A DNA stretch of 53,102 nucleotides from Clostridia bacterium (GTDB lineage: Bacteria > Bacillota > Clostridia > Christensenellales > CAG-314), in NCBI GenBank assembly GCA_028698585.1, contig JAQVWG010000012.1, positions 1-53,102 of the forward strand. Reading direction: 5' to 3'. Position 1 is the first letter of the stretch, and each line of letters begins with the position of its first letter. Positions 14,616 to 51,500 of this stretch are shown in pieces. The translations under genes and the position numbers were made by a program. The notes beneath the pieces were generated by a model, which saw only the letters and a program-made list of their open reading frames with translations, did no database searches and was not told where the DNA came from.

Positions 14616-14947
14616 TTAAATAACAAGACGATAATTAGGAATAATCAATCGACTAATTATCACTACATATAAGTACCTTTTGAGATATCCTGCGAGATAT
14701 TCAAAAAAAGACTTGAGTGCGCACTATACATATACAGCAAGGCACTCGAATGATTAAATAACAAGACGATAATTAGGAATAATCAATTGACTAATTATCA
14801 CTACATATAAGTACCTTTTGAGATATCCTGCGAGATATTCAAAAAAAGACTTGAGTGCGCACTATACATATACAGCAAGGCAAATAAACAAAATTGAGTC
14901 AAAAGCCAATAATTAGGGTATAATCAATTGACTTTGGACGTCAAAAA
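14534..14947 (+). repeat. 138-bp tandem array of the scfB 3' end (three copies)
   Basis: Copies start at 14534 (inside scfB), 14672 and 14810, period 138 bp. Each unit carries the final 27 codons of scfB, the stop region and an AT-rich spacer. Copies 2 and 3 are nearly identical until the third diverges near 14884. The spacer part caattgact in copies 2 and 3 corresponds to the -35 region of the secD promoter, so the unit originally spanned the whole scfB-secD gap. No gene is present in 14616-14994. Confidence 0.95.
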
Positions 14948-29048: not shown

Positions 29049-29513
29049 ATGAAATATTCCAACGAGATGACATTGACAATATCTGCATTATCGCAGAATG
29101 AGAGTTTTATCCGTAGCAGTGTGGCATCGTTTAGCGTGTTGCTTAATCCGAGCATTGAGGAGATAGGCGACATTAAGACAGCAGTATCCGAGGCCATAAC
29201 CAACTGCATAGTGCATGCGTATAAGGGTCGAAACGGTGCAGATAGAATAACCGTAAAGGTTGGTATCACGGATAGAACGCTCGTGATTGACATAATTGAT
29301 TATGGTAGCGGGATTGACGACGTATCTCTTGCCATGCAACCATTCTTTACATCAGGTAACACTGAGGAACGCTCCGGAATGGGGTTTACCGTTATGCAAG
29401 CGTTAATGGACGAACTGAAGGTAACATCCAAGCCCAATAAAGGCACCCACGTGCTGATGAAAAAACATATTCAGCAGACAAATAACGATATTGACGAGGG
29501 CGCAGATGCTTGA
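29049..29513 (+). CDS. spoIIAB: Anti-sigma F factor / serine kinase SpoIIAB
   Basis: 154-residue GHKL kinase: N box AVSEAITNCIVHAY, G1 box IIDYGSGID, G2 box RSGMGFTVMQALMD. It holds sigma F inactive and phosphorylates SpoIIAA. AAGGAG before ATG. Its 3' end overlaps sigF (ATGCTTGA). Confidence 0.95.
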   Translation: MKYSNEMTLTISALSQNESFIRSSVASFSVLLNPSIEEIGDIKTAVSEAITNCIVHAYKGRNGADRITVKVGITDRTLVIDIIDYGSGIDDVSLAMQPFFTSGNTEERSGMGFTVMQALMDELKVTSKPNKGTHVLMKKHIQQTNNDIDEGADA

Positions 29514-30231
29514 ACATGAACAGACAATGCTACTCATTGGCAAAGCCAAGCAGGGTGACGAGGAGGCCAAAACAATTCTGTTGCAGGAGAATATGCCCTT
29601 GCTCAAGAGTATTATCAGGCGATATGCCGGCAAGAACGTAGAGTATGATGACTTATTGCAAATAAGTAGTATAGGATTACTCAAGGCAATCAATAACTTT
29701 TCGACTGAGTTTAATGTGCGATTCTCTACTTATGCCGTGCCTATGATACTAGGCGAGGTTAAGAGATACTTAAGGGATGACGGATATATCAAGGTCAGTC
29801 GTTCAGTCAAGAGCCTAGCGTCCAAAATAAATCTATACATTGACGAATACCGCAAAACTAACATAGCAGAGCCTACCATTGAGCAGATTGCAGAACAGTT
29901 CGACATCGAGCAGACCGAGGTCATTTTCGTTATGGACTCAACCAAGATGCCGATATCACTATACGATCGCAACAACTCAAATGACGGCAAGTCATTGAGT
30001 GTTATAGATAAACTCGTGGAGGACAACGGAGACGAAGATTTGATTGATAGAATAATACTCAAAACGGTAATCAATCAACTAACGGATCGAGAAAAGAAAA
30101 TCATATTGTTAAGGTACTTTCGTGACCTCACTCAAGGTGAGATTGCTCATCAGTTGGGGGTATCTCAAGTGCAGATATCACGTCTGGAGACCAAAATACT
30201 GGAAAAAATCAAAAAGTCATTTACAGATTAG
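29506..30231 (+). CDS. sigF: RNA polymerase sigma-F factor
   Basis: 241 residues. Region 2 (YDDLLQISSIGLLKAINNF and RFSTYAVPMILGEVKRYLRD), region 3, and region 4 with helix-turn-helix (LTQGEIAHQLGVSQVQISRL). First forespore-specific sigma factor. Start ATG 29506 follows GAGGG and overlaps the spoIIAB stop; an in-frame TTG at 29491 lies before the ribosome site. The third gene of the spoIIA operon as in Bacillus and Clostridium. Confidence 0.95.
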   Translation: MLEHEQTMLLIGKAKQGDEEAKTILLQENMPLLKSIIRRYAGKNVEYDDLLQISSIGLLKAINNFSTEFNVRFSTYAVPMILGEVKRYLRDDGYIKVSRSVKSLASKINLYIDEYRKTNIAEPTIEQIAEQFDIEQTEVIFVMDSTKMPISLYDRNNSNDGKSLSVIDKLVEDNGDEDLIDRIILKTVINQLTDREKKIILLRYFRDLTQGEIAHQLGVSQVQISRLETKILEKIKKSFTD

Positions 30232-30383
30232 TTTAGTTGTTATAAGTATATTTGTTTCTTTTTTTGTTAATTATCCTTGTTGGGTGAGTTAATTGATTAC
30301 ACGGCCTGTTCGTGGCTTCTGTCAAAACATTGACGAGAGGGAATCTTATCACAAAAAAATTAAGAGTAGAAGGGGACAAAGAA

Positions 30384-30848
30384 TTGAAAAGTCAGCAGAA
30401 AGATTATGCTCAAATAAGCAAGAGCAATTATAAATCTTATGTGTTCGAAACCTCGCCGAAGTCCAGCCACTGGAAGAATATGATATGGGCATTCCTCATA
30501 GGTGGGTTGATTTGTGTCGTTGGACAACTGCTAATTGCGTTGTTCATTAAGCTGGGATTAGATAAGGAGATGTCGTCAACTTTAGCGTCTAGCGTATTGG
30601 TCGCCCTAGCAGCGATTACTACAGGTATAGGTATATATGATAGGCTAGGCAGGTTCGCAGGCGCAGGTTCTACCATACCTATAACAGGATTCTCTAACGC
30701 TATTGTCGCACCTGCAATAGAGTTTAGAAGCGAAGGGTTAATATATGGAATAGGCGCCAAGATGTTCACGGTTGCAGGTCCGGTTATTGTCAACGGTGTA
30801 AGTGTAGCAGTAATAATTGCGTTGCTTACAGCCCTTTTCGGAGGCTAA
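30384..30848 (+). CDS. spoVAC: Stage V sporulation protein SpoVAC
   Basis: 154 residues from TTG 30384, which follows GAAGGGGA with good spacing and gives a family-length protein; a GTG at 30312 would add 24 residues without a ribosome site. Membrane protein with about four helices; conserved segments GGLICVVGQLL, FAGAGSTIPITGFSNAIVAPA and EGLIYGIGAKMFTVAGPVIVNG. Part of the channel moving dipicolinic acid in and out of the spore; SpoVAC is thought to be the mechanosensitive pore. Confidence 0.93.
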   Translation: MKSQQKDYAQISKSNYKSYVFETSPKSSHWKNMIWAFLIGGLICVVGQLLIALFIKLGLDKEMSSTLASSVLVALAAITTGIGIYDRLGRFAGAGSTIPITGFSNAIVAPAIEFRSEGLIYGIGAKMFTVAGPVIVNGVSVAVIIALLTALFGG

Positions 30849-30850
30849 AA

Positions 30851-31885
30851 ATGGCATACATGGTAAATGACAGTTATGATTTGCCTACAATTAACTATGT
30901 CAACTGCTACATTCTTGATGGTTATTCAGTGGCTGGTCCTAAGGAGAGAATGGGCAAGTTGGGTGAGCACTATGACCTTACGGTAGATAATGACAAGTTC
31001 GGAGAGGACACATTCGAGAAGGGCGAGCGAAAAATGTTCGCCACAGCGTTACAGGGCGCTATAAACAAGTCCGGTGTAAGTGATAGTGACATTAATGCGA
31101 TAATAGGTGGCGATCTTCTTAATCAAATCGTTTCCACTTCATTCGCAACAAGGGGGTATCCTATACCTTACTTGGGATTATATAATGCATGTGGCACTTT
31201 CGTTGAGAGTCTAGTTGTGGGTGCAATGCTAGTAGACAATTATATGCAACATGTGGCATGTGTAAGTGGCAGTCATTTCTCTACAGCAGAACGGCAATAT
31301 CGGTTTCCTTTAGAACTCGGAGTTTTTCGTTCACCTCACTCGCAATGGACCGCTACAGGTGCAGGGTGCACAATACTGAGTAATCACTCTGCACATCCGT
31401 GCGCAAGGATAACTAAAGCGACTATTGGACGGGTTGTCGATTACGGCATTAAGGATATTAACAATATGGGAGCTGCAATGGCACCTGCTGCGTGTGACAC
31501 ATTACTGGCACACCTTAACAATACTTCAACAAAACCTGATGATTACGACTTAATTATGACTGGCGACCTAGGAAAACTGGGTGGATACATTTTCGGCGAT
31601 CTTACCAGCAAGAAAGGAGTTGTTCTTGGTGATAACTATATGGACTGTGGCGCTTCGATGTACTACCCAGAACAGAGGACATATATGGGGGGCTCGGGTG
31701 CTGCGTGTTCGGCACTCGTTTTTAACAGTATGATACTCAATCAACTGCACAACAATGAAATCAAAAAAATGCTTTTAATAGGAACTGGCGCATTGATGAG
31801 CCCAACAACTTCTTTTCAGGGGGACAGCATACCATCCATTGCGCATTGTATTCAGGTAGAGTATGAGGAGGAGTTATGGAACTAG
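30851..31885 (+). CDS. spoVAD: Stage V sporulation protein SpoVAD
   Basis: 344 residues with a thiolase-like fold; segments GDLLNQIVSTSFATRG, PYLGLYNACGTFVESL, SGSHFSTAERQYRFPLELG and GTGALMSPTTSFQGDSIPSIAH are family hallmarks. It binds dipicolinic acid on the inner spore membrane. GGAGG precedes the ATG. Overlaps spoVAE. Confidence 0.96.
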   Translation: MAYMVNDSYDLPTINYVNCYILDGYSVAGPKERMGKLGEHYDLTVDNDKFGEDTFEKGERKMFATALQGAINKSGVSDSDINAIIGGDLLNQIVSTSFATRGYPIPYLGLYNACGTFVESLVVGAMLVDNYMQHVACVSGSHFSTAERQYRFPLELGVFRSPHSQWTATGAGCTILSNHSAHPCARITKATIGRVVDYGIKDINNMGAAMAPAACDTLLAHLNNTSTKPDDYDLIMTGDLGKLGGYIFGDLTSKKGVVLGDNYMDCGASMYYPEQRTYMGGSGAACSALVFNSMILNQLHNNEIKKMLLIGTGALMSPTTSFQGDSIPSIAHCIQVEYEEELWN

Positions 31886-32515: not shown

Positions 32516-33196
32516 GTGCCAAGGCAGGTCATATACAACGGTGTAGAGTATATCAACAGGCGACACAGAATCAAAAAAAAGACTCGAGTAATGCTAATTG
32601 TTATAAGTTTAGCAGTTGTTCTGTTTGTCATCGTGTGGTCGTTATTCAACAATAATCGAGCACCCAATATCGCTGACTACTCTCGTGCGCAGGTGCTATC
32701 TATGTCTACTATTGCAGTTAATGACGCAGTGTTGACATCGCTTAGTCAGTCTGTTGAATATGATGACCTAGTAACGCTTGTCCGCAATGATAATGGCGAT
32801 GTGCAACTTATGCAAACTAACACAATGTTGGTTAACATGTTGGCGAGAAAAGTTGCACGAGCAGTCGAAATTAATCTAGAAATCATGAGCGAACAGGGAA
32901 TCGTTATACCACTGGGAAACTTGACAGGTTTACCTATACTGGCAGGGCTTGGGCCAGACATTACTGTAGTGGTGTCGCCCAATGAATCCGTGGTGTGTCA
33001 ATTCATATCTGAGTTCGAATCGGTAGGAATTAACCAAACAAGGCATAAGATATATGTCAATATTATAACATCTGTTGAGTTGATAATGCCGTCGTTCGAA
33101 AGCACATTGACCAATCAAACCCAAGTGTTGGTATGTGAATGTATCATACTCGGGGATGTGCCACAAGTCTATATGTCGCCACTAAATCTCAACTGA
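32516..33196 (+). CDS. yunB: Sporulation protein YunB
   Basis: 226 residues. A basic N-terminus is followed by one membrane helix (about 24-43); the rest should face the intermembrane side. Conserved family segments: IVIPLGNLTGLPILAGLGPDI, FESVGINQTRHKIYV and the final VPQVY. YunB is a sigma-E-controlled sporulation protein of unknown biochemical role. Start is a GTG at 32516 after GGGG. The last 27 codons are repeated three more times downstream. Confidence 0.92.
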   Translation: MPRQVIYNGVEYINRRHRIKKKTRVMLIVISLAVVLFVIVWSLFNNNRAPNIADYSRAQVLSMSTIAVNDAVLTSLSQSVEYDDLVTLVRNDNGDVQLMQTNTMLVNMLARKVARAVEINLEIMSEQGIVIPLGNLTGLPILAGLGPDITVVVSPNESVVCQFISEFESVGINQTRHKIYVNIITSVELIMPSFESTLTNQTQVLVCECIILGDVPQVYMSPLNLN

Positions 33197-33575
33197 CTGT
33201 CAAGTTAGATTAAATGCTATTAGAATATTTGATTTACCATCAAACCCAAGTGTTGGTATGTGAGTGTATCATACTCTGTGATGTGCCACAAGTCTATATG
33301 TCGCCACTTAATCTCAACTGACTGTCAAGTTAGATTAAATGCTATTAGAACATTTGATTTACCATCAAACCCAAGTGTTGGTATGTGAGTGTATTAACCT
33401 CTGTGTTGTGCCACAAGTCTACATGTCGCCACTTAATCTCAACTGACTGTCAAGTTAGATTAAATGCTATTAGAACATTTGTTTTATCATCAAACCCAAG
33501 TGTTGGTATGTGAATGTATTAACCTCTGTGATGTGCCACATGTCTATATGTCGCCACTAATCTTTGCTGATAACC
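33115..33575 (+). repeat. 125-bp tandem array of the yunB 3' end (four copies)
   Basis: Copies start at 33115 (within yunB), 33240, 33365 and 33490, all with exact 125-bp period; the last is partial. Copies 1 and 2 differ at only about five positions. Each unit holds the last 27 codons of yunB, the stop and about 45 bases of spacer. The open frame is not kept between copies because 125 is not a multiple of three. Confidence 0.96.
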
Positions 33576-34956: not shown

Positions 34957-37344
34957 ATGAAATTACCTATTAGTTGGTTAAAAGAATATGTTGATATTGG
35001 AGACATTACTCCTATTGAGTTGTGCGAGAAGCTGGTCAATGCCGGATTCGAAGTAGAGGAGATAATATATCGTGGTGAGGGAATGAGTAATGTGGTTGTC
35101 GGTAGAATACTGGACATAAGTAAACACCCTGACGCTGACAAGTTACTCGTGTGTAGGATTGATATCGGCAAAGAAGTCTTGCAGATAGTTACGGGTGCAC
35201 CTAATGTATTCATTGGCGCAGTCGTACCTGTCGCTACGCATAATTCATATTTACCGTGCGGCAAGCACATCACAAGGGGCAGATTGAGGGGCGTGGAGAG
35301 CAACGGTATGCTATGTGGCGGTGAGGAGTTATGTGTAACAGAGGATATCTATCACGGTGCTAGTGTAGACGGCATACTGATTCTTAATGATAATGAGATT
35401 ATTGGCGAAGATATGGTTAAGGTATTAGGCCTTGACGACTATGTTCTAGATATATCTATTACTGCTAACAGACCTGACTGTGGCAGTGTGTACGGAATGT
35501 GCAGAGAGATTGCTGGCATACTGGGAAATCAATGTAAAGAATTAGATTTGACATATAATATAACTGTTGATAAGGACATCAAACAATATGTTAATGTAAA
35601 GGTTTACGACGTAGACTTATGCACTAACTATGCTATGTCCGTTGTGGATAACGTAACGATTGCACAGTCTCCATTATGGTTGACTCGCAGACTGTCAGCA
35701 GTGGGACTGCGGGGTATCAATAATCTAGTTGATATCACCAACTATGTACTCATTGAACTAGGTCAGCCCATGCACGCATTTGATTATGCAGATATTACTG
35801 ATAAGACCATAATTGTTAGGAGAGCCAACAAGGGCGAGAATATAACGCTCCTTGATGATAAGGAGTACTCCCTTGGCGAACAAATGCTGGTGATTGCAGA
35901 TAAAACTAAACCAGTTGGGCTGGCAGGTATCATGGGTGGGGTTAAGAGTGGTATCAAGCAAGACACTAAGACAGTTGCATTCGAATCGGCAATATTCGCT
36001 AAAGGTAGTATAAGGCATACCAGTAAAGATTTGAACGTTAGGAGTGATTCTTCGGCACGGTTCGAGAGAGGACTAGATGACTACACTTCGTTGTTGGCAT
36101 TAGACAGGGCACTACACCTAGTACAACAGTTAAAGTGTGGACAAGTAGTCAAGGGGCAGATCAAGATAGGTGAATACACCGGACTCAGGGAAATCAAGTT
36201 CGACAAGTCTCGTATTGTCAAGTTACTTGGCATTGAGGTGCCGGATAAGGACATAGTGCGTATTCTAAATGGACTAGGTATCCTCGCAACAATCGAGAAG
36301 ACCACTCTTAATTGCATAATACCACCATATAGGGCAGACTTGACAAGACCCTGCGACTTAATAGAGGAGATAATTCGCATATATGGTTATTCACACATAA
36401 CGCCTACTCTGTTAGAGGACTGCAGAATCACAATAGGCGGTAGGTCATCTGTTGACACTGACATCAACAAGATTAAGGGACTACTTGTTTCTTGTGGGTA
36501 TAACGAGATAGTGACATACTCATTCGGTGGTAGATTGACGTATGAGAAACTATCTGTTGATAAGAATGCGGATTTAAGCAATAATATTAAACTACTCAAT
36601 CCGCTCGGCGAGGAGTTCAGTCTAATGAGGCGCACTTTGGTTGCCGATATGCTTGAAGTAATTGCTGGCAATCAATCTCGTCACAATGAGCAACTGAGTC
36701 TATTCGAGTTGGCCAAAGTCTATTTAACAGATAAACTGCCACTAGAATCATTACCCATTGAACAGCGCAGACTATGTGTTGCTTCGACTTGTCAGGACGC
36801 ATTCTACACCGTTAAGGATGATTTACTTAGTCTGCTAGCAAGAATGGGAATTGACGCTAGCGTTACTAGTTGTCAATGTGAGTATTTACACCCCAACATC
36901 AGTGCTAGTTTAATGTGCGGTGATAGAGTGATTGGCTCAGTTGGTTTGGTTCACCCAACAGTTGCAGATAATTATAATATCAAGTCTGCTGTATGTGTGG
37001 CAGAACTAGACGTAGATACTATACTCAGTGTAAAGGATGACAATATCAAATATAAGAGCGTACCGAGATTTCCTGCAATAGAGAGGGATTTTGCATTGGT
37101 TGCAGATATTGATATGCAATCGGGCAAGATTATAGAACTGATTCGCAAGTACTGTAAACACAGCGAAAGTGCAAGAGTATTTGATGTATATTGCGGTGAT
37201 CAGGTCGGCAATAACAAGAAGAGCATTGCAATTAATGTAGTGTTCAGGGGTGAGGGCACGCTGACGGACAGTGATATCGAAGGTGAAATCAAGAAGTGTT
37301 TGTCCGAACTAAATAGACAACTCAATGTTGTATTGAGAGTATGA
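34957..37344 (+). CDS. pheT: Phenylalanyl-tRNA synthetase beta subunit
   Basis: 795 residues. N-terminal tRNA-binding domain (EMAP-like, GRILDISKHPDADKLLVCRI), B3/B4 editing domain (with ITANRPDCGSVYG and YVLIELGQPMHAFDYA), B5 domain, catalytic-like core and C-terminal anticodon-binding FDX-ACB domain (YKSVPRFPAIERDFALV). Holds the tRNA and edits Tyr-tRNA-Phe. TAGGAGGG before ATG. Its stop overlaps the start of mutS2. Confidence 0.97.
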   Translation: MKLPISWLKEYVDIGDITPIELCEKLVNAGFEVEEIIYRGEGMSNVVVGRILDISKHPDADKLLVCRIDIGKEVLQIVTGAPNVFIGAVVPVATHNSYLPCGKHITRGRLRGVESNGMLCGGEELCVTEDIYHGASVDGILILNDNEIIGEDMVKVLGLDDYVLDISITANRPDCGSVYGMCREIAGILGNQCKELDLTYNITVDKDIKQYVNVKVYDVDLCTNYAMSVVDNVTIAQSPLWLTRRLSAVGLRGINNLVDITNYVLIELGQPMHAFDYADITDKTIIVRRANKGENITLLDDKEYSLGEQMLVIADKTKPVGLAGIMGGVKSGIKQDTKTVAFESAIFAKGSIRHTSKDLNVRSDSSARFERGLDDYTSLLALDRALHLVQQLKCGQVVKGQIKIGEYTGLREIKFDKSRIVKLLGIEVPDKDIVRILNGLGILATIEKTTLNCIIPPYRADLTRPCDLIEEIIRIYGYSHITPTLLEDCRITIGGRSSVDTDINKIKGLLVSCGYNEIVTYSFGGRLTYEKLSVDKNADLSNNIKLLNPLGEEFSLMRRTLVADMLEVIAGNQSRHNEQLSLFELAKVYLTDKLPLESLPIEQRRLCVASTCQDAFYTVKDDLLSLLARMGIDASVTSCQCEYLHPNISASLMCGDRVIGSVGLVHPTVADNYNIKSAVCVAELDVDTILSVKDDNIKYKSVPRFPAIERDFALVADIDMQSGKIIELIRKYCKHSESARVFDVYCGDQVGNNKKSIAINVVFRGEGTLTDSDIEGEIKKCLSELNRQLNVVLRV

Positions 37345-39707
37345 TTAACGATAAGACATTAATTAAATTAGAATATGCGAGAGTGTTACAACTAGTAGCA
37401 CAGAGGACAAGGAGCGCACTGGCACGCAACCTCGTATTGGAAACGCAACCTATGAGTGACTGCGATACTGTAGCAGGATTACTAGCGCAGACAAGCGAAG
37501 CCATAGAATACATTAATAATGCTGTTACGCCAGACTATACATTCGATGATGCGACAATAGTGCTGGGCAAGGCGAGGGTGTGCTCCACTCTTAATTTGAG
37601 AGAGCTATTATGCGTTATGCGATTATTAAGAGTTTCTAGGCAGATTAGAACATTACTTAATTCTTACCATAATGAAAGGATAGTATGGATAGCACAGAAA
37701 ACAGATGAAATCTATACTAATCACAACTTGGAGGAACTGCTCGATTATAGCATTATATCCGAGGAGGAATTGAACGATAAGGCCAGCGACACGCTCTTTT
37801 CTATTCGCAAGAAGATTAAGAAGGTAAACGCAGACATCAGGGAAAAACTTAATAGTTATACTCGCAGTAAGGATATGGCTATGTATTTACAAGATGCCAT
37901 TGTAACCATGCGTGGTGGCAGATATGTTATACCGGTCAAGCAGGAGTATAAGAATTATGTCAAGGGCCTAGTGCATGACCAATCTGCGTCTGGCTCGACA
38001 TTGTTTATAGAGCCACTAGCCATAGTCAACCTTAATAATAATCTCAAGACTCTATTGCTAGAGGAGGCAGAAGAGATAGAGAGGATTCTTGTCGAGTTAA
38101 CAAGAATGGTTAACGAGGTGGAGAAATCCCTGTCTAATAACCAGAATATAATTGCGCTACTAGACAGCGTTTTCGCACGAGGGCTGTATGCTATTGACAT
38201 TAAGGGGGTAATGCCCAAAGTGAACGACAGTGGCTATGTGTCGCTTATAAGGGCAAGACATCCCCTTATTGACAAGCATAAAGTAGTACCCATAAGTATA
38301 TCGTTCGGACGGGGACACTCCATAGTGGTCGTGACAGGTCCTAACACGGGTGGTAAAACGGTGTCTCTCAAGACTGTAGGATTGTTCTGTATTATGGCAA
38401 GCAGTGGACTATATTTACCGGCAGATGATGGTACCGAGATAAGTGTGTTCGAGAATATATTCTGTGACATAGGAGACGAGCAGAGTATCGAGCAGAACCT
38501 GTCGACGTTTTCTAGCCACATACTTAACATCAAGAGCATAACCGAGCAGTTGAATAAGCAGACGCTAGTATTGCTAGATGAACTTGGTGCAGGCACCGAG
38601 CCTAACGAGGGAGCAGCTATTGCTCTGGCTATCACAGAGTATATACTCAACAGTGGAGCTAAGGCTGTGTTAACTACTCACTATGGACAACTTAAGGAAT
38701 ACTCTCTTGTAACTGAGGGCATAGAGAACGCTTGTATGGAGTTTGATATCAATACTTTGGCGCCGACATACAAGTTAATTATGGGCATACCGGGCAGTAG
38801 TAATGCCATCATCATAGCGCAGAAACTGGGTCTATCCAGACAGATTATTGCATCTGCGAGGGATAAGATATCAGCAGAGAAAATTACTTTTGAGGGAGTA
38901 TTGCAAAGAGCAGAGCAGGTAAGACAGGCGAGCGAACAACAAAAAGAGGAAGTCGAATCCATCAAAAGAGAGCTATATGAGCAACTACAGAAGGCTAGAG
39001 CGCAGAATGAAACATTACTTGTCGAACGCGAGAAACTGCTTAAGAAGTCGCAACTAGAGGTACGCCAAGTGGTATTGCAAGCGCAAGAGGAGGCAACGGA
39101 ATTACTCAATCAGTTGAAAGAAATACTCAATAAAAAAGAGTATGATGACTCAACCATTTTCCATGCACGCAAGATTGTCAAGGAGATTAAGGATAAGAAG
39201 TACGTGTCGCAGGAGAGCGAAGAGGACGCTGTATTTGTCGGCGACAAGGTCAAGATTGATATGGCCAAGGTGGGGGACGACGTGTATATCAAACCATTGA
39301 AGAATGTGGGTAAGATTGTCAAGTTCGAGAAGAAGAACAGAGTGCTTGTTCAGTGTGGCAACATGACTACAACTGTTGATGCTGATGATTTGTACGAGAG
39401 CTATGACGCAGGTCAGAGCAAGAAGAAATATCAACCGACCAAGACTACCATAAGAAAACAATATGTACCGAGCGAAATTAATGTGCTTGGTCAAACGGTG
39501 CTGGAGGCAACAGACAATGTCGATAAGTTCCTAGATGACGCCGTATACGCAGGGCTAGAAACAGTGCGTGTTGTCCATGGTATAGGGACGGGTAAATTGA
39601 GAGATGGCTTGCATAGTTATTTTGGCAGACATCCGCATGTGGCTGAGTATAGACTAGGCGTATATGGCGAGGGCGAAGGTGGAGTTACCATAATTAAACT
39701 CAAATAA
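37341..39707 (+). CDS. mutS2: MutS2 (RqcU) ATPase with Smr domain
   Basis: 788 residues. MutS-type ATPase with Walker A GPNTGGKTVSLK (from about residue 333), Walker B LVLLDELGAGTEPNEG, long coiled coil (about 510-610) and a C-terminal Smr domain (last 75 residues, RVVHGIGTGKLRDGL). MutS2 does not perform mismatch repair; it limits recombination and acts on collided ribosomes. It follows pheT by overlap; zapA, often found between them, is absent. Confidence 0.95.
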   Translation: MINDKTLIKLEYARVLQLVAQRTRSALARNLVLETQPMSDCDTVAGLLAQTSEAIEYINNAVTPDYTFDDATIVLGKARVCSTLNLRELLCVMRLLRVSRQIRTLLNSYHNERIVWIAQKTDEIYTNHNLEELLDYSIISEEELNDKASDTLFSIRKKIKKVNADIREKLNSYTRSKDMAMYLQDAIVTMRGGRYVIPVKQEYKNYVKGLVHDQSASGSTLFIEPLAIVNLNNNLKTLLLEEAEEIERILVELTRMVNEVEKSLSNNQNIIALLDSVFARGLYAIDIKGVMPKVNDSGYVSLIRARHPLIDKHKVVPISISFGRGHSIVVVTGPNTGGKTVSLKTVGLFCIMASSGLYLPADDGTEISVFENIFCDIGDEQSIEQNLSTFSSHILNIKSITEQLNKQTLVLLDELGAGTEPNEGAAIALAITEYILNSGAKAVLTTHYGQLKEYSLVTEGIENACMEFDINTLAPTYKLIMGIPGSSNAIIIAQKLGLSRQIIASARDKISAEKITFEGVLQRAEQVRQASEQQKEEVESIKRELYEQLQKARAQNETLLVEREKLLKKSQLEVRQVVLQAQEEATELLNQLKEILNKKEYDDSTIFHARKIVKEIKDKKYVSQESEEDAVFVGDKVKIDMAKVGDDVYIKPLKNVGKIVKFEKKNRVLVQCGNMTTTVDADDLYESYDAGQSKKKYQPTKTTIRKQYVPSEINVLGQTVLEATDNVDKFLDDAVYAGLETVRVVHGIGTGKLRDGLHSYFGRHPHVAEYRLGVYGEGEGGVTIIKLK

Positions 39708-39865: not shown

Positions 39866-40999
39866 ATGATATATTTTGACAATTCAGCAACTACTGTGGT
39901 AGACATAGACGTAGAAAAAGTTATGCATAAGTACCATTGTGAGGCATACTACAATGCCTCTTCATTGCATAAGTTTTCGCTAGACGTTAAGAAAGATATA
40001 CAGCAAGCGCGCCAAGTTATGGCTAATGCAATCGGCTGTTATGCAAGCGAAATATATTTTACGGGTTCAGGAACAGAAGCTGATAATATGGCCATAAGTG
40101 GTTCAATCAGGCGAAAAGGTAACATAGTTACTTCGTATGCTGAACATTCGGCAGTTCTGAATACAGTTATGCAGTTTAGGTCTAAGGGGTATGAGATACG
40201 TTTATGTAATTTGATGAGCGATGGGCGTATAGATATACAGCATTTAGCTTCTCTTGTTGATAATGACACCGTAGTCGTTACTGCTATGTATGTTAACAAC
40301 GAGACTGGCGCTGTCAATGATATCGAACGAATTGTAAGACTAGTTAAGGGAATTAATGCCCAAACACTGGTTATGTGTGACGGCGTGCAGGCGCTGGGCA
40401 AAATACCAGTTGATGTCAAAAAACTTGGAATTGACTTTTTTACGTTTTCTGGACACAAGATACACGCAAGTAAGGGGATAGGTGGGCTATACATCAAGAA
40501 TGGAGTTCATATTAATCCTATTATACATGGCGGTGGGCAGGAGTCAAATCTGAGGTCTGGTACCGAGTATGTTGCTGGTATAATGGGTATGGCTTGTGCA
40601 ACAACTAAGGCAATTGCCACTATGCAGAGCAATAGCATTAAGTATGCAGAGTACAAGAGTATAATATGCAACAGATTGCAGGAGATAGGGCACTACGTTC
40701 TGCTCTGTCCGGATAACTCTGTGCCTTCTATACTGGCGATTGGGCTAGAGGATATTAGGTCTAACACTTTACTTAATCTGCTGGAACAACAGGACGTCAT
40801 TATCGGACTAGGCTCCGCATGCAATTCTAAGAAAGGTATAAGTAAAGGCATTCAAGCGACTGGTCTCGATGCCAAGTACCTCAATGGAATAGTAAGAATA
40901 AGTTTTAGCAGATACAATACCGTTCAAGATGTCGACCAGTTGGCAAATTGCTTAGTCGATTCTATTAAGCAGTTAAGACGAATGTTAGGGTTGACGTAA
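39866..40999 (+). CDS. Cysteine desulfurase (NifS/IscS family)
   Basis: 377 residues, PLP enzyme that takes sulfur from cysteine. Start IYFDNSATTVVD, PLP lysine Lys198 in FSGHKIHASKG, catalytic Cys319 in GSACNSKKG. Its partner thiI lies downstream in the same direction, as in Bacillota where such a pair makes 4-thiouridine at tRNA position 8. A hairpin (CCGTC/GACGG) lies at 39782-39797 in the leader. The last 13 codons are repeated three more times downstream. Confidence 0.94.
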   Translation: MIYFDNSATTVVDIDVEKVMHKYHCEAYYNASSLHKFSLDVKKDIQQARQVMANAIGCYASEIYFTGSGTEADNMAISGSIRRKGNIVTSYAEHSAVLNTVMQFRSKGYEIRLCNLMSDGRIDIQHLASLVDNDTVVVTAMYVNNETGAVNDIERIVRLVKGINAQTLVMCDGVQALGKIPVDVKKLGIDFFTFSGHKIHASKGIGGLYIKNGVHINPIIHGGGQESNLRSGTEYVAGIMGMACATTKAIATMQSNSIKYAEYKSIICNRLQEIGHYVLLCPDNSVPSILAIGLEDIRSNTLLNLLEQQDVIIGLGSACNSKKGISKGIQATGLDAKYLNGIVRISFSRYNTVQDVDQLANCLVDSIKQLRRMLGLT

Positions 41000-41400
41000 T
41001 TCTCGCTGAGTCGCTATATATAGGGTTACAGCACTCTATAAATTGATTAGTTATAATCAATGCATAGCAGTTGGATTAACGCCTTGAGGACTCTATTAAG
41101 CAGTTAAGACGAATGTTAGGGTTGACGTAATTCTCACTGAGTAGCTGGAATATGGCGTTAACTGTCGCAACTATGGATTGATTAGTTATAACATCAATGC
41201 GTAGTACTTGGTCTAACGCCTTGAGGACTCTATTAAGCGATTAAGACGAATGTTAGGGTTGACGTAATTCTCACTGAGTAGCTGGAATACGGCTTTAACT
41301 GTCGCAACTATGGATTGATTAGTTATAACATCAATGCGTAGTACTTGGTCTAACGCCTTGAGGACTCTATTAAGCAGTTAAGACTATTGTAGGGATTAAT
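40961..41400 (+). repeat. Tandem array of the cysteine desulfurase 3' end (four copies)
   Basis: Copies of the gene end (tctattaagcagttaagacg) start at 40961, 41092, 41229 and 41366: periods 131, 137 and 137 bp. Copies 2 and 3 are nearly identical along their full length including the spacer; copy 1, with the real gene end, has a more diverged spacer. Copy 4 is truncated. The remainder to 41673 (before thiI) shows no gene. Confidence 0.95.
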
Positions 41401-42822: not shown

Positions 42823-43377
42823 TATAAGCATATATGTTGTACTATTATAGACATAGTATGACATATTATGACATTTCCGCAAACAATATGAATATTGCTT
42901 GTTCGTCCTATGTACTTATGGATGTCGCAGATACTATAACCTAGAGCATACAGTAACTATTATCGATTATGTTCGCTAATATTCCGCAGTATTGCTTTAA
43001 CCTATAGTTAATTATGCAACTCCTAGTATACTGTTATTGGTGACTTAACCTAAGGCACTGCAGTTAACTAATGCTAATAGCGTCCGTTTCAATAAGTTTA
43101 TGTTTGCTGTTGTTGCACCACCTTGATGTAATCAATTACCATTAGTTAATATATAATTAACCAGTTAAACCTTCGATAAAGGAACGCCACCAACCCTTGT
43201 TCTGGTGTGGCTTATGCTCGGTGTTATGGTTTAATTTACACTCCTAGTATACTGTTATTGGTGACTTAACCTAAGGCACTGCAGTTAACTAATGCTAATA
43301 GCGTCCGGTTCAATTAGTTTATGTTTGCTGTTGTTGCACCATCTTGATGTAATCATTTACCATTAGTTAATATATAA
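42823..43377. repeat. 221-bp tandem duplication at the PBP 3' end in a gene-free gap
   Basis: The sequence from about 43021 recurs from about 43242 with a 221-bp period (tcctagtatactgttattgg and ccagttaaaccttcgataaa both found twice, at 43021/43242 and 43161/43382). The second copy enters the PBP gene from its 3' side, so the upstream copy (about 43161-43210) is a duplicated PBP tail on the minus strand. 42823-43020 shows nothing but short gacatagtatgacat-type repeats. Confidence 0.9.
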
Positions 43378-45657
43378 TTAACCAGTTAAACCTTCGATAA
43401 AGGAACGCCACCAACCCTTGTTCTGGTCGGGCTCAGTTTGTTCTGTTGTTGATTCAGTAAATGGTATAGTTACGGTTACTTTATTAGAACATAGTATCTC
43501 TTTGGTATCGATAACTCTCGTAAGGAAATATGTGTATGTCGAACCTTCTGTAAGGCTCTTATCCATGTACTTTCCGTTTAGTTGTGAACAATCGTTACTG
43601 AGGAGTGTGGCATTATCGTTGTTAATCCTATATAGTCTATATTGTGGCAACTCACTTGACATATTGACTATTATTGAGTTGTCGTACCTGACAAGTGACA
43701 GTTTTACTATATCGTCCTTAATGTCTATCGTGATTGGAGCGTTGTCCCTACTAAAGTATTCACTCATATAATCCCTAGACTTGCCAGCCAGTGCCACTAT
43801 GTGTTTATCCTTAAGCATTCTGCTATCTACTTGATATACTGCTACGCTGTTAGGCTGAACGAAATCCTCAGGGTAGTAGTCTACGTACGTGTGCGTAAGT
43901 ATATCTTTAGCAATAATGGTTGGCGCACCTCCACCTAGTAGAGTGGGAGCAAGATTGCTATCTGTATCGCTTATCCATACGCAAAATGTGTGTTGTGACG
44001 TATATCCTACAGATATTGCATCACTGTTACTAATTGTTGTACCTACCGTGCCCGTCTTACACGCTACTTGATAGGGCAGAGAGGATAGCCCTCTCGCTGT
44101 TCCTTCTTGAACTGCAGAGATGAGTAGCTGAGTAGATAAGAATGCTGTGTCAGGTGAATAAACAGACTGGTTATTAGTTTGATGTTGATATATGCACCTG
44201 CCTTGACTGTGAATACTCTTAATTAGCGATGCATTGCATATATTACCCTGTCGTGCGAATGTAGAGTACGCCGAAGCAAGGGTTAGTATATCTACGCCTT
44301 GGCTATAGTTACCCAGTGCTAGTGTTAGATTATCGTCTGCATCTGTAATCCTGATACCTAGTTTAGCAGAATACTCCTGCGATTTAGCTATGCCGATAGA
44401 ATTGAGAATACTTGTCGCACACGCATTAGAACTGTTGGCGAATGCTCGCTTGATAGTTGTCCAACCAAGGTAACTGTTGTTATAGTTATCCGGTGAATAG
44501 CCATTGAAGTCAGTCTTCTCGTCCAGTATGGGTGTTACTAGCGTAATTGCCTTACATTCGAGTGCTGGTGCATAGACAGCGAATGTTTTGGCTGTTGAAC
44601 CTATCTGTCTGTGTTGTCTAAGGAAGTCAAACGCGTTTAGGCAGTAATACGCACTAACGCCACACGTATTATTGTCTAGCACTAAAGCGCTCTTTTGTGC
44701 TGGCGCGCCTGATTGAGTTGTTGATGTATCCCTATTGATAGAGTCAATTAAACTATCCTGAGCATTCTGGTCTAAGTAAGTGTGTATAACCAGTTCGCTC
44801 TTGGTCAATTGCATGGGGGAAACGCCCAGTATTTGGCATGCCTGATATATGACTGCGTCAGCATAGTCTTGCTGTTTAATAGTTGACCTAGGGCTATTGT
44901 CAATATGTTCTAATAGGGCTGTGTCGTACTGTTCTTGAGTGATTAACGATTGCGTAAGCATAGCACCTAGCACTGTATTGCGCCTGCTGATACACTTATT
45001 AATGTCAGTGAATGGAGAATAATTGTTCGGGGACTGTATGATACCAGCCAACATAGCGCTTTGAGACAGCGTCAGCTCGCTGGCACTCTTGTCAAAATAC
45101 AGATTGGACGCAACCTCAATGCCGTATGCGTTGCCACCAAAATATATAGTGTTGAGATACATTTGGAGTATTTCTTTCTTACTGTATTGACTCTCGAGGC
45201 GCCTAGCGAGGATAATCTCATTGACCTTGCGCTTGATTGTTTTGTCGTTGTTGAGGTGAGTGTTCTTGATAAGTTGCTGTGAAATGGTAGATGCGCCTTC
45301 TTTAATAGAACGACTACTGATGTTATTTTTCAGTGCTCTCAGAATACTTCTTACATCCACTCCATTGTGGGAGTAGAATCGTTTGTCTTCTATACTGATA
45401 AATGCATCTAGCGTGTACTGATTGAGGAGTGTTATATCTACGTTCTTAGCATTATTGATAAGTAACGTCTCATTAATGGGTTGACCATTGACGTCAAGTA
45501 TTACCACTCTGCTACTGAATGCCTTGAGCTTACATTCATCAAATCGCACATAATCATCGCTTGACACTATTACCGCAAGGGTAATAATAATTAACAGAAT
45601 TATAGCGCTGAGGAAACTGACTATAGTGATTAAGGCTATTTTGAGTTTTTTGTTCAT
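43378..45657 (-). CDS. Class A penicillin-binding protein (PBP1A type)
   Basis: 759 residues, bifunctional peptidoglycan synthase. Membrane helix at about 7-31; glycosyltransferase domain with Glu90 in SIEDKRFYSHNGVD, EGASTISQQLIKN and RRLESQYSKKEILQMYLN; transpeptidase domain with Ser354 and Lys357 in GSTAKTF, SSN in ANSSNACATS, and KTG in ACKTGTVGTT. The C-terminus has a fibronectin-like segment (YRLYRINNDN to VTVTIPF). The start ATG at 45657 lacks a recognisable ribosome site. Opposite in direction to its neighbours. Confidence 0.94.
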   Translation of the reverse strand: MNKKLKIALITIVSFLSAIILLIIITLAVIVSSDDYVRFDECKLKAFSSRVVILDVNGQPINETLLINNAKNVDITLLNQYTLDAFISIEDKRFYSHNGVDVRSILRALKNNISSRSIKEGASTISQQLIKNTHLNNDKTIKRKVNEIILARRLESQYSKKEILQMYLNTIYFGGNAYGIEVASNLYFDKSASELTLSQSAMLAGIIQSPNNYSPFTDINKCISRRNTVLGAMLTQSLITQEQYDTALLEHIDNSPRSTIKQQDYADAVIYQACQILGVSPMQLTKSELVIHTYLDQNAQDSLIDSINRDTSTTQSGAPAQKSALVLDNNTCGVSAYYCLNAFDFLRQHRQIGSTAKTFAVYAPALECKAITLVTPILDEKTDFNGYSPDNYNNSYLGWTTIKRAFANSSNACATSILNSIGIAKSQEYSAKLGIRITDADDNLTLALGNYSQGVDILTLASAYSTFARQGNICNASLIKSIHSQGRCIYQHQTNNQSVYSPDTAFLSTQLLISAVQEGTARGLSSLPYQVACKTGTVGTTISNSDAISVGYTSQHTFCVWISDTDSNLAPTLLGGGAPTIIAKDILTHTYVDYYPEDFVQPNSVAVYQVDSRMLKDKHIVALAGKSRDYMSEYFSRDNAPITIDIKDDIVKLSLVRYDNSIIVNMSSELPQYRLYRINNDNATLLSNDCSQLNGKYMDKSLTEGSTYTYFLTRVIDTKEILCSNKVTVTIPFTESTTEQTEPDQNKGWWRSFIEGLTG

Positions 45658-46216: not shown

Positions 46217-46245
46217 TTGAATAATACACAAAAAGCAGTTATAAT
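46217..46245 (+). promoter_or_regulatory. miaB promoter
   Basis: TTGAAT (46217-46222), 17-base spacer, consensus TATAAT (46240-46245). Transcription from here excludes any start codon before about 46252. Confidence 0.72.
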
Positions 46246-46267
46246 GAGATTAAGTAAGGAGAATAGA

Positions 46268-47578
46268 GTGAATTACTATATTAAGACGTACGGCTGTCAA
46301 ATGAATGTACACGAGTCGGAAAAAATAGCCAATATATTAGTCGAGTTAGGGTATCAAGAGTGTACAGATATGAGTACGGCTGATATTATCGTGTTCAATA
46401 CCTGTTGCATTAGGGGGACTGCCGAGGACAAGATTAAGGCTCATATCGGAGAGGTTAAGCACATCAAGAAGGCAAACCCTAACTTAATCGTAGCTGTATG
46501 TGGGTGTATGTCGCAACAGGAGGGTGTCGCACAATCGCTACTGAATCGATTTCCGTTTATCAATATTGTACTGGGGACGACTAATCTTCACCTGCTCAAA
46601 GAACGGATTGCACAAGTCAAGAACAGTAAACGATATGCTAACACCGACTATTGCCACCATGCAGAGCTAGAGTCTTATCGAACAAGTACACCTAACGGAT
46701 GGGTTAATATAATATATGGTTGTAATAATTATTGCACTTACTGCATAGTCCCACATGTTAGGGGTAGAGAACAGAGTCGACAGGAGGATAATATTGTTGA
46801 CGAAGTAACGCAACTGCTCGAGAATGGTTATAAGGAAATCACATTGCTTGGACAGAATGTTAATTCTTATGGCAAAGACTTGAACGATGGCAGTAGTTTT
46901 GCCGGATTACTTAATAGGTTGGCTGAGTTGCCGTATAGATATAGGTTGAGATTTATTACTTCGCACCCTAAGGATTTGAGTGATGAAGTCATAGACGCTA
47001 TCGCCAGACATGATAATATATGCAAGAGCATACATTTGCCAGTTCAAAGCGGCAGCACCGATATACTTAGGCGTATGAACAGGAGATATACTCGTGAGGA
47101 TTATATCGCACTTGTGGACCGCATACGGGCATCTATACCGAATGTCGGCATTACTAGCGATATAATGGTCGGCTTTCCCAATGAGACAGAACAAGATTTT
47201 TTCGATACGCTGGACCTAGTTAACAGAGTTAGGTTTTCGTCACTATTCTGCTTCATCTACTCGCGTCGCAAGGGTACCCCTGCTTATAGCATGGATAATC
47301 AAGTGAGCATCGAGGTCAAGAGAGATCGCATTAAGCGCCTTATTACCACACAGAATATTATTACTAATCAAGTGAGCCAAGAGTATCACGGCAAGGTGTA
47401 TGAGATACTTGTAGAAGATAGGAATGATAAATACGATAATACCTACTGTGGTCGCACTGACTGTGGCAGACTAGTCAACTTTGGGTGTGACACTGACTTA
47501 ATAGGACAGTTCGTTAATGTGCGCATTAGGAAATCAGCATCTGCCACGCTATGGGGCGACCTAGTAATGGACGGATAG
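46268..47578 (+). CDS. miaB: tRNA-2-methylthio-N6-dimethylallyladenosine synthase
   Basis: 436 residues. UPF0004 domain with three cluster cysteines (TYGCQMN, FNTCCIRG, VAVCGCMSQ), radical SAM motif CNNYCTYC (Cys152, 156, 159) and a C-terminal TRAM domain. Methylthiolates i6A37 made by MiaA, which is encoded downstream. Start is GTG 46268, 6 bases after AAGGAG; the frame is open to 46217 but that part overlaps the promoter. Confidence 0.95.
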   Translation: MNYYIKTYGCQMNVHESEKIANILVELGYQECTDMSTADIIVFNTCCIRGTAEDKIKAHIGEVKHIKKANPNLIVAVCGCMSQQEGVAQSLLNRFPFINIVLGTTNLHLLKERIAQVKNSKRYANTDYCHHAELESYRTSTPNGWVNIIYGCNNYCTYCIVPHVRGREQSRQEDNIVDEVTQLLENGYKEITLLGQNVNSYGKDLNDGSSFAGLLNRLAELPYRYRLRFITSHPKDLSDEVIDAIARHDNICKSIHLPVQSGSTDILRRMNRRYTREDYIALVDRIRASIPNVGITSDIMVGFPNETEQDFFDTLDLVNRVRFSSLFCFIYSRRKGTPAYSMDNQVSIEVKRDRIKRLITTQNIITNQVSQEYHGKVYEILVEDRNDKYDNTYCGRTDCGRLVNFGCDTDLIGQFVNVRIRKSASATLWGDLVMDG

Positions 47579-47965
47579 GAGCATGACAATTAACTGCTCA
47601 TTGTAGTTATCCCATTATCAGCGATTATCCAGCATAACACGATGTTAACTCAATAATCTGGACTAATATTTACCGACAATAGTTCTGTAATTGTGGGGAA
47701 GAGGGACTCCGTTGGCATTTCATAACTGACGGTTAGATTATTCTGTAGTCCAATATTATGCGCATTCATATCAACAGCCAGTACAGATTACTCTTACACC
47801 GCTCTTCCTTCTATTACATGGCTGTATGGTAATATTGCGTATATGGTCTGTTACTGTTCCAAGGGGGACAACATCCATTATGTTGTACTGCGCATAGGGG
47901 AGCAACATCGATATAACTGTATGGTTTGCGTTCAGAATGATAAACAAGTGATGTCCATAGTGGTA
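47579..47965. other. Gap at the usual mutS position
   Basis: No gene. In many Bacillota mutS lies between miaB and mutL; I find no recognisable MutS fragment here in any frame. Confidence 0.6.
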
Positions 47966-48541
47966 TAATCAATGGTAATTATATGTTCGACTCCATAGGA
48001 TTCTTATTGACGAAGTTACCGATATATTACACCTAGTTGTAATCTCTTAAACGTATAAGTACCGTTATTATCGCTAACGGCTATATGATACACAATAGAT
48101 GTTGTGGTGTAATCAATGGTAATTATATGTTCGACTCCATAGGATTCTTATTGACGAAGTTACCGTTATATTACACCTAGTTGTAATCTCTTAAACGTAT
48201 AAGTACCGTAATTATCGCTAACGGCTATATGATACACAATAGATGTTGTGGTGTAATCAATGGTAATTATATGTTCGACTCCATAGAATTCTTATTGACG
48301 AAGTTACCGTTATATTACACCTAGTTGTAATCTCTTAAACGTATAAGTACCGTTACTATCGCTAACGGCTATATGATACACAATAGATGTTGTGGTTTAA
48401 TCAATGGTAATTATATGTTCGACTCCATAGGATTCTTATTGACGAAGTTACCGTTATATTACACCTAGTTGCGGTCTATTGAAGGTATAAGAGCCGTTAT
48501 GCTAACGGCAAGTTAATGAACTACTATATTACCTTACACGA
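47966..48541 (+). repeat. 144-bp tandem array upstream of mutL (four copies)
   Basis: Copies start at 47966, 48110, 48254 and 48398, exact 144-bp period, very high identity; the fourth diverges over its last 70 bases as it approaches mutL. Each unit contains the inverted repeat CCGTTA...TAACGG. Unlike the other arrays I cannot match the unit to the end of a neighbouring gene; it may descend from the lost mutS region or the mutL leader. Confidence 0.95.
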
Positions 48542-48549
48542 GGAAATTA

Positions 48550-50574
48550 ATGATTAATCGTATTAATGATGAGTTGTATAGCCAAAAAGAATTCGGTAAC
48601 ATTATTGTGTTGCCTGTCAATATTGTAAAAGAATTAATCGAAAACAGCATAGATAGTGGAGCAAAGCAGATAATTATCAAAGTTGAGGACTATGGCTGGG
48701 GCAAGATAACTGTTGCTGACGATGGGATAGGGATAGATAAGAGTGATGTATCCAAGTTGTGTCAATATCAAGCCACGAGTAAAATCAAGAGTAAGTACGA
48801 TATAATTGGTGTAACAATGCTGGGATTCAGAGGATTAGCATTGCATACGATATCAACTAGTAGTAAGTTAGATATTGTATCTGCTCAAGTAGGGGGTACG
48901 CCGTTTAGTTTTTCGACATTCAATCGCCAAGTAGAAATTAATCCTATTACTGCTGACTCATTCACCCAATCGCTGATTGAAGCAGACATCAATCTACTTG
49001 ACTCCGATAATTGTTCTACATTAGAGGAGGATTTTGATTCTGCCGACATAGAATTATTAAGTTCAGCAGATGGTGTTATGAAACAACCTTTGTCTGACAC
49101 TGAACAGCAAGATAGTAGTCACGGCACAGTTGTATCGGTATCCAAGATATTCTATTATAATCCGGAGATAAGACAGAATCATGATGACCAACTGTGTCTG
49201 GTAGGCATTAACCGTTGCGTAAGCGACTTCATACTGACTAATGGTGACAAATGCATCAAGTATTATGTAGACAATAAACTTATTTTTAATCATGACGGCA
49301 GTGGTCGCAAGAATGCAATCAAGTCGGTCTACGGCGAGAAGTTTTTTTCGAATGTGCTCAAAACCGATTGGTTCTATCATGGTATCACCATACACGGATA
49401 CATAAGCAAGCCCGGATTCGGTCAGTCGCACAATGGTATGCAGACCATATCTGTTAATAATCGGCTGATTGAATCACCATTGCTATTGAATGCCATCAAT
49501 GACGTTTATAGGTATTATTTGATTGATAAACACGCTTTTTTTGTTCTCAATATTACTCTCATGCCTAAGGATGTTGATGTTAACACTAGTGCTAATAAGA
49601 CTCACGTTGAGTTCGCCAACAAGCAACGAGTACGTGAAGCAGTAAAAGAGAGCGTCAAAAAAACTCTTCAATATGACCATATTATCAACGAAAGGGCTGT
49701 TTTCGGGGATGATGCACTAAAGGACAAAAAAGCTCACAGGAATCTCAATAATCACTTGAGTGCGTTGCGCTTGAGGAGTGGTTTACCTTTCAACTCATTT
49801 AAGAACACCAAGGAGCAGGAGGTCACTAAGTATCTGGGTTACGGTGGTATGGATGCTAATCTGCTCTATGCCAATCACGGCCACATACGTGCCTCAGGCG
49901 ATAGGTATTATCAACTAGATGAGAACACTAATGCTGATTTTTTGAGCATAATTACCATGCTAAATGGTATGAGGGCTAGTAAACTGACTAGTTTTCCATT
50001 GTTTTCTAGTGGTAAGTTGTTGGGCATGATATTCGATAGATATATCTTGCTCGAGAGAGATGAGTTCTTATATATAATAGATTATTATGCTGCCAGAGCA
50101 AGGGCATATTATGACTTCTATCTAGAACAATGCAAGAGCAACGTGGTAAGTATTAAACTGAAGGAACCATTCGTATTTAAGGTTAATGATACCATGCAAG
50201 ACTATTTAGTGCTCAATCATGCCCTGTTTGCAAAACTTGGGATATATTTTAAGCAACTTCAAGGTGTGTACTATCGCTTGGATAGGTTGCCATTAGGGTT
50301 TTCGACCGTGATGCATGTTGAGAGTTTTGTGGAGAGTCTACTGACTAATTCTTATAATTATGGTTCAGCGGAGAATATTATTACAGCAGAGAATATGGGC
50401 AGACTCATGTGTAGGTATCTAGAATTGAGAGCAGAGGATCTCACCGTACCCGAGATACGCACATTCCTAAAAACGATTGACAGAACTAAGTTTCACACTA
50501 GTCCCGAAGGCAAGTCGATTGTCGTGATATACCATCAAGTAGAGTTCGAGAGGAGGTTTAATCGCAAGACATGA
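48550..50574 (+). CDS. mutL: Divergent DNA mismatch repair protein MutL
   Basis: 674 residues, full length. The GHKL ATPase core keeps Glu28/Asn32 in VKELIENSIDSGA, DDGIG (57-61) and ATSKI (75-79), but the IAAGEV segment is replaced by EFGNIIVLP and GFRGEAL has become GFRGLAL (92-98). An acidic insertion (about 140-190) is unusual. In the C-terminal domain the endonuclease motif DQHAxxER reads DYYAARAR (from Asp511), losing His and Glu, and CPHGRP is replaced by SPEGKS (from 651). Nicking activity is therefore probably lost. It sits between miaB and miaA as expected, but mutS is missing. GAGGA precedes the ATG. A specialised or decaying MutL are both possible. Confidence 0.88.
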   Translation: MINRINDELYSQKEFGNIIVLPVNIVKELIENSIDSGAKQIIIKVEDYGWGKITVADDGIGIDKSDVSKLCQYQATSKIKSKYDIIGVTMLGFRGLALHTISTSSKLDIVSAQVGGTPFSFSTFNRQVEINPITADSFTQSLIEADINLLDSDNCSTLEEDFDSADIELLSSADGVMKQPLSDTEQQDSSHGTVVSVSKIFYYNPEIRQNHDDQLCLVGINRCVSDFILTNGDKCIKYYVDNKLIFNHDGSGRKNAIKSVYGEKFFSNVLKTDWFYHGITIHGYISKPGFGQSHNGMQTISVNNRLIESPLLLNAINDVYRYYLIDKHAFFVLNITLMPKDVDVNTSANKTHVEFANKQRVREAVKESVKKTLQYDHIINERAVFGDDALKDKKAHRNLNNHLSALRLRSGLPFNSFKNTKEQEVTKYLGYGGMDANLLYANHGHIRASGDRYYQLDENTNADFLSIITMLNGMRASKLTSFPLFSSGKLLGMIFDRYILLERDEFLYIIDYYAARARAYYDFYLEQCKSNVVSIKLKEPFVFKVNDTMQDYLVLNHALFAKLGIYFKQLQGVYYRLDRLPLGFSTVMHVESFVESLLTNSYNYGSAENIITAENMGRLMCRYLELRAEDLTVPEIRTFLKTIDRTKFHTSPEGKSIVVIYHQVEFERRFNRKT

Positions 50575-51500
50575 GCAAATATTCTCATACTCTGCTGTGC
50601 TTGTCCGGACCGACTGCAGTAGGTAAAAGTGACATTGCTATGGAGATAGCTAGACGGTTGGGGAGTGATATTATATCTGCTGATTCGATGCAGATATATC
50701 GTGGCATGGATATAGGTACTGCTAAACCTACCAAGCTAGACCAAGGCATAATTAAACACCACATGATTGATATAATTAATTGTGATGAAGAGTACAGTAG
50801 CTATATGTATAAGGAGGCTGTTGACGGTATTATAGCTCAGCACGAGGAGTCACAACAACCATCGCTGATAGTTGGTGGAACTGCATTCTATCTTGATAGT
50901 CTGCTATATAAGTTGGATTTTGAAGTGAATGGTCAAACCATTGAGTTGCGCGACAGATTGCTTCACGAATATACAGAGAGAGGTGCGCAGTACCTTCACG
51001 ATAAGTTGCACAACCTTGACCCACAGTCGGCAGAGCGCATACATCCCAATAACGTCAAGAGGGTGATTAGAGCTATCGAAGTGGCTAGTATGGGTGGCTC
51101 CTTATCTAATGCACGCGATAAGTGTAGTAGATACAACCATGTGCTATTTGCGCTTAGTATGAATAGACCACTACTCTACGAGCGAATCAATAATAGGGTT
51201 GATACGATGGTAAAACAAGGTCTAATTGAAGAAGTGCAGAATGTATACGCAGATTACCACGATAGGAGACTTCAGGCGCTACAAGGTATCGGGTACAAGG
51301 AGATTATTCAATATCTCGAGGGTGAAATAACCCTAAGTGACTCAGTTGACCTTATTAAACGGCATAGCCGAAATTATGCCAAAAGGCAATTAACTTTTCT
51401 TAAGAGATTGAATCCAATATGGCTAGATGTGACATCAACTCAATCAAATGTAATTGATACTATTTTAGATGAGTACTACATGAAATCGAGTTATGTATAA
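50571..51500 (+). CDS. miaA: tRNA dimethylallyltransferase
   Basis: 309 residues. P-loop GPTAVGKS (13-20), ISADSMQIYRGMDIGTAKP, KHHMIDI, and the catalytic VGGTAFYLDSLLY segment. Adds dimethylallyl to A37 of tRNAs reading UNN codons; its product is the substrate of MiaB upstream. The ATG overlaps the mutL stop. hfq, the common next gene, is absent. Confidence 0.96.
   Translation: MSKYSHTLLCLSGPTAVGKSDIAMEIARRLGSDIISADSMQIYRGMDIGTAKPTKLDQGIIKHHMIDIINCDEEYSSYMYKEAVDGIIAQHEESQQPSLIVGGTAFYLDSLLYKLDFEVNGQTIELRDRLLHEYTERGAQYLHDKLHNLDPQSAERIHPNNVKRVIRAIEVASMGGSLSNARDKCSRYNHVLFALSMNRPLLYERINNRVDTMVKQGLIEEVQNVYADYHDRRLQALQGIGYKEIIQYLEGEITLSDSVDLIKRHSRNYAKRQLTFLKRLNPIWLDVTSTQSNVIDTILDEYYMKSSYV

Follow-up and report, generated by a model that had tools for sequence, protein, structure and literature searches.

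In a window of 53,102 nucleotides, the whole stretch of DNA analyzed, from the draft genome of a Clostridia bacterium (contig JAQVWG010000012.1 of assembly GCA_028698585.1; 16 contigs, 95.3% complete), mutL stands intact beside miaA and, as read from the sequence, mutS is absent from the assembly, several MutL motifs are lost, the nucleotide-pocket residues are retained, and the protein shares ancestry with the MutL of a sister genus of the same family (genome G003). We consider it somewhat probable that this MutL is a maintained protein with a MutS1-independent role. More tentatively, we propose that it is a bacterial MutL which, having neither MutS1 nor nicking, would act as an ATP-gated dimeric scaffold selected for some other transaction on DNA, with MutS2 as a possible partner, and that G003 represents an intermediate with a MutS–MutL pair without nicking. 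The locus is arranged as follows, in window coordinates.

46217–47578, + strand: miaB (tRNA methylthiotransferase), flanking the lost mutS on the left
47579–48549 (971 bp): gap where relatives have mutS
47960–48500: tandem array, 144-bp unit, 3.8 copies, the unit occurring only here in the genome
48550–50574, + strand: mutL, 674 aa, intact frame, ATG start
50571–51500, + strand: miaA, overlapping the mutL stop by ATGA

In the fetched family relatives whose contigs extend far enough, the genes run miaB-mutS-mutL-miaA, and the earlier note was right that mutS is missing from this order here and that a 144-bp array occupies its place: no MutS remnant could be detected in the gap, and a profile search finds no match to mutS1 proper on any contig of the draft genome. 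A ribosome-binding-like GAGGA lies ahead of mutL at 48540–48544, and the gap does not exceed shuffled sequences in promoter-like or terminator-like sites. That mutS is in fact present and dropped out of the assembly through collapse at the array, the organism then having a diverged, G003-like MutS–MutL pair without a nicking site, would fit the draft state of the genome, the position of the array exactly at the expected mutS site, and the diverged mutS that G003 has at that place. We hold such a collapse to be improbable, as no contig gives a mutS1 match besides MutS2, KamC and a MutS_I fusion (see below), 381 bp free of array copies separate miaB from the array, and similar arrays are common in this genome. 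In a 441-kb sample, arrays of period at least 60 number 54 per Mb and cover 2.4% of bases, whereas nine relatives have 0–20 per Mb and a tenth has 59 (51-kb sample). Being one of many, the array at 47960–48500 need not be tied to the loss of mutS. It was also considered as an RNA gene and rejected, with no Rfam match and fold z scores of −0.05 and −1.73 against shuffles. Seven arrays, with different units of 125–221 bp, lie within the 53-kb window:

7573–8113
8592–8913
14527–14882
33106–33560
40961–41384
43019–43427
47960–48500

The genome is unusual in dinucleotide composition as well (AA/TT 0.93, TA 1.13 and CG 0.89 in the 441-kb sample; AA 1.16–1.47 and TA 0.52–0.97 in ten relatives). As to a homopolymer footprint, A/T runs of at least 8 in its coding sequence are not more depleted than in relatives bearing mismatch repair, and over the genome as a whole, judged from the 441-kb sample, runs of at least 4 are rare, at 0.72 times chance versus 1.45–3.4, with dinucleotide make-up differing too. 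The organism is probably a spore-former, since a gene for a sigma-70-family factor lies close to a SpoVAD gene (window 29491–31885).

The search for mutS elsewhere in the genome that the earlier note had advised left its reading standing: the mutS1 profile gave three matches on the genome's contigs, namely MutS2, a protein encoded on contig 3 and a short segment of contig 9. The contig 3 protein (471 aa) was rejected as mutS and is KamC, the reactivase ATPase of lysine 5,6-aminomutase (429 bits). The contig 9 match was likewise rejected, being MutS domain I carried by a protein of 332 aa whose PcfK score is weak (24.1 bits, below the cut-off of 27); this protein adjoins a PcfJ-like gene and is probably mobile-element cargo. 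MutS domain I is present in 371 of 396 genomes of the order, and here its only match is this fusion. The two features that bear on a MutS-family partner are:

37341–39707, + strand: mutS2 (MutS_V, MSSS and Smr), intact, a possible remaining MutS-family partner
L162:2982–3980 (contig C9), − strand: MutS_I fusion in the PcfK-like protein, sole MutS_I match in the genome

A second intact mutL, which would have counted against the earlier reading, was not found in the genome, and as a MutS–MutL system the locus lacks its MutS1 in this draft (95% complete). MutH is found in neither this genome nor G003, and NucS is not found in this genome. With MutS1, MutH and NucS missing and the MutL nicking site lost, ordinary mismatch correction would be unavailable through known parts. 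Among the relatives, genomes G002, G006 and G081 (92–98% complete) have no detectable MutS1 or MutL and no MutS2 over cut-off. Two further genomes, G154 and G348, were tried as carriers of orphan MutLs without MutS_I and rejected, their MutLs having canonical motifs and lying on 3–4 kb pieces, which makes a contig break likely.

The MutL protein scores 268.4 bits against TIGR00585 (cut-off 180) and has the Pfam domains ATPase, DNA_mis_repair and MutL_C, with PF08676 over cut-off. Its features, all on the + strand, are:

48631–48654: GHKL motif I (ELIENSID), with catalytic E28 and Mg-binding N32 kept
48823–48843: GFRGLAL, in which Leu replaces the invariant Glu of GFRGEAL, the same change occurring in G003
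48997–49116: residues 150–189, core of an ATPase-domain insertion, pLDDT <50, absent from G003
50005–50574: C-terminal dimerization (former endonuclease) domain, residues 486–674
50080–50103: DYYAARAR replacing DQHAxxER
50500–50517: SPEGKS replacing CPHGRP

The three motif replacements are thus as the earlier note had described them. It had placed all of them in the nicking site, which holds for DQHAxxER and CPHGRP but not for GFRGE, an ATPase motif outside the endonuclease site. DQHAxxE, ACR and CPHGRP are metal-binding motifs, and the Arg of CPHGRP is catalytic (PMC10366529). At the metal site, His is replaced by Y513, Glu by A517, Cys by S651 and His by E653, and the CPHGRP Arg by K655; still in place are D511, the endonuclease Asp, and C621, the Cys of motif IV. 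The Gln of the β-clamp motif is lost as well (I535 here, Thr in G003). On these residues, a working nicking site in this MutL is very unlikely. On the ATPase side, E28, N32, D57, N345 and K350 are kept, among them the catalytic Glu, the Mg-binding Asn and the γ-phosphate Lys. Motif III, conserved in the family but not needed for the TIGR00585 score, reads GFRGLAL. All 80 MutL relatives fetched from genome_contigs, a set from which records close to this genome may be absent, carry GFRGE, which argues that the motif changes seen here are not chance.

The claim that ATP-binding residues are kept was borne out in an alignment with 72 MutLs, in columns at least 90% conserved: 26 of 29 nucleotide-pocket columns are kept, versus 26 of 47 other conserved columns (Fisher p 0.002), and G003 keeps 25 of 29 and 16 of 47 (Fisher p 1e-5). 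Because the pocket columns (motifs I to IV, TSK, N345 and K350) were picked by motif after the table was viewed, these p values are to be read as descriptive. Both genomes have lost, in the N-domain, the GFRGE Glu, the greater part of the AAGEVVERP arm, the TPARRK loop and the His-Pro preceding K350, and, toward the C-terminus, the His and Glu of DQHAxxE, the Gln of the clamp motif and three CPHGRP residues (Cys, His and Arg). The N-domain losses count against a scaffold, as ATP-driven closure may be altered or absent.

The reading frame is indeed open over all 674 residues, with folds predicted at both ends. The full-length model comprises two confident domains, and MutL is predicted to keep both the GHKL ATPase and the C-terminal dimerization folds. 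The best match of the N-domain is the B. subtilis MutL NTD (Z 36.2, rmsd 2.2, 311 aligned). Modeled alone, the C-domain reaches pLDDT 89.2 and matches the MutL CTDs of N. gonorrhoeae (Z 18.7), B. subtilis (Z 16.4) and E. coli (Z 16.4, rmsd 2.9, 175 aligned), the last of which is endonuclease-free. These models used alignments of ordinary MutLs and are biased toward the ordinary fold; the metal-site loss was read from the sequence. The match to the E. coli CTD, together with the lack of endonuclease motifs in E. coli MutL, would suit an enterobacterial style of repair, in which an endonuclease-free MutL directs a separate nickase. This we regard as very improbable, with no MutH in either genome, no NucS and no MutS1 to start repair in this one, and the clamp-binding Gln lost too.

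G003 suggests an order of events. Its relevant genes are:

L037:6414–8210: mutL, 31% identity over 589 aligned codons, best family match to the MutL described here
L037:4001–6421: mutS, adjoining mutL, fast-evolving, C-terminal part missing

The two MutLs have the identical substitutions E17N, V18I, E96L, E517A, L639F, C651S and R655K, and their linker in common too. A profile of this derived MutL, run against 396 genomes of the order, gave 1324 bits for the present genome, 903 + 203 for G003 and at most 173 for the rest; having been built from the first two, it is informative only in the drop below them. No other genome among the 396, and no relative in genome_contigs, has the derived form. 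A tree of MiaA and MiaB groups the two genomes (bootstrap 94). The G003 MutS has DEIGKETSTQDG where the DExGRGTxTxDG loop is usual and keeps the FYE motif and Walker A. The shared identical substitutions, taken with the presence of mutS in G003, are most simply explained if the endonuclease was lost before the genera split and before mutS was lost. The simplest order, as far as sequence comparison allows, is that the nicking site went on the stem shared by the two genomes and mutS later in the line of the present one. The recent loss suggested in the earlier note does not hold for MutL, as the derived protein is common to a genus that retains mutS.

Evolutionary rates were obtained by setting MutL branch lengths against those of MiaA and MiaB on the MiaA + MiaB topology. 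The MutL/flank ratio reaches about 10.5 for the stem common to the two genomes, against 2.8 and 3.4 at the tips of the present genome and G003, and about 1.7 at ordinary MutL tips, with ratios taken by hand and long branches poorly estimated; the two tip rates are thus 1.6–2 times the ordinary MutL rate. By comparison with MiaA and MiaB, the G003 MutS evolves about 3 times faster than expected. The MutL rates look like a burst followed by partial regain of constraint, rather than steady decay. The two mutL genes differ at 57% of first, 41% of second and 70% of third codon positions, an inequality unlike neutral drift, and the roughly 7 stops expected in mutL at neutral drift of 0.1 substitutions per site compare with 0 seen.

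These data also bear on whether mutL is a decaying relic, intact but useless after mismatch repair was lost, its frame kept open by coupling to miaA or by slow decay. We give this a lower, though appreciable, probability than a nick-free scaffold. In favor of a relic, MutL has lost many of its motifs and its tip rates remain elevated, mutL and miaA overlap (ATGA) so that coupling could keep the frame open, and G002 and G006, which have no mutS, mutL or mutS2, indicate that repair loss is tolerated in the family. Against a relic, conservation is concentrated in the ATP pocket across two genera, codon positions are constrained, folds are predicted for both domains, and the frame predates the genus split; moreover, coupling guards a frame and not specific residues. 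Raised tip rates and miaA coupling weigh correspondingly against a scaffold. The conservation pattern favors, as a hypothesis, the new role for the ATPase scaffold that the earlier note had offered as an alternative.

As we picture the nick-free scaffold, MutL in the common ancestor of the two genomes would have dropped its metal-dependent nicking site and the β-clamp Gln, the ATP pocket staying in place, and mutS would have been deleted at a later step in the present lineage. The remaining MutL could close in an ATP-dependent manner and recruit partners, and would be unable to start MutS-directed, MutL-nicked repair; we infer its ATPase activity, clamp action, partner and job. A plausible job would be recombination control or damage tolerance, not replication-error correction. 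In anti-recombination of the E. coli type, offered here as an analogy, MutL acts without nicking of its own. MutS2 would be the leading candidate partner, because it is intact in this genome and MutL–MutS2 complexes occur in Thermus thermophilus, where co-immunoprecipitation and pull-down have demonstrated them (PMC3084264); a helicase would be an alternative. As a specific assignment, MutS2 as the partner remains doubtful. It is absent from some MutL-bearing genomes and present in some without MutL (6 of 11 genomes without MutL keep mutS2 over cut-off, as do most MutL-bearing ones, kinship ignored), and this mixed distribution means that co-occurrence lends little to the link.

MutL is usually viewed as subordinate to MutS and, in bacteria without MutH, as the nickase. 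In the literature searched we found no described case of a MutS-independent MutL or of MutL without MutS. With the nicking site gone first, mutS later and the ATP pocket retained, the present protein would amount to a natural separation-of-function mutant, and its lineage would open to study what the MutL ATPase does by itself and whether the reported MutL–MutS2 contact is important in living cells. For a lineage that lives without mismatch repair, the case also points to an order in which the system may be lost, nickase and then sensor.

Compared with the MutL endonucleases of MutH-less bacteria (Bacillus subtilis, Aquifex aeolicus), the protein has the same domain order, both folds and the ATP-pocket residues, and within the family such MutLs occupy the same place between mutS and miaA; unlike them, it has lost the metal-site His, Glu, Cys and His, the CPHGRP Arg and the clamp Gln, and has no MutS partner. 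Escherichia coli MutL likewise has a dimeric ATPase fold and a C-terminal domain without a nicking site. E. coli MutL keeps GFRGE, the AAGEVVERP arm and a clamp motif, and acts together with MutS, MutH and Dam, whereas the present genome has neither MutS nor MutH. Closest is the MutL of G003, with the derived substitutions and linker in common, which, unlike its counterpart here, adjoins a retained, fast-evolving mutS and is without the insertion in the ATPase domain.
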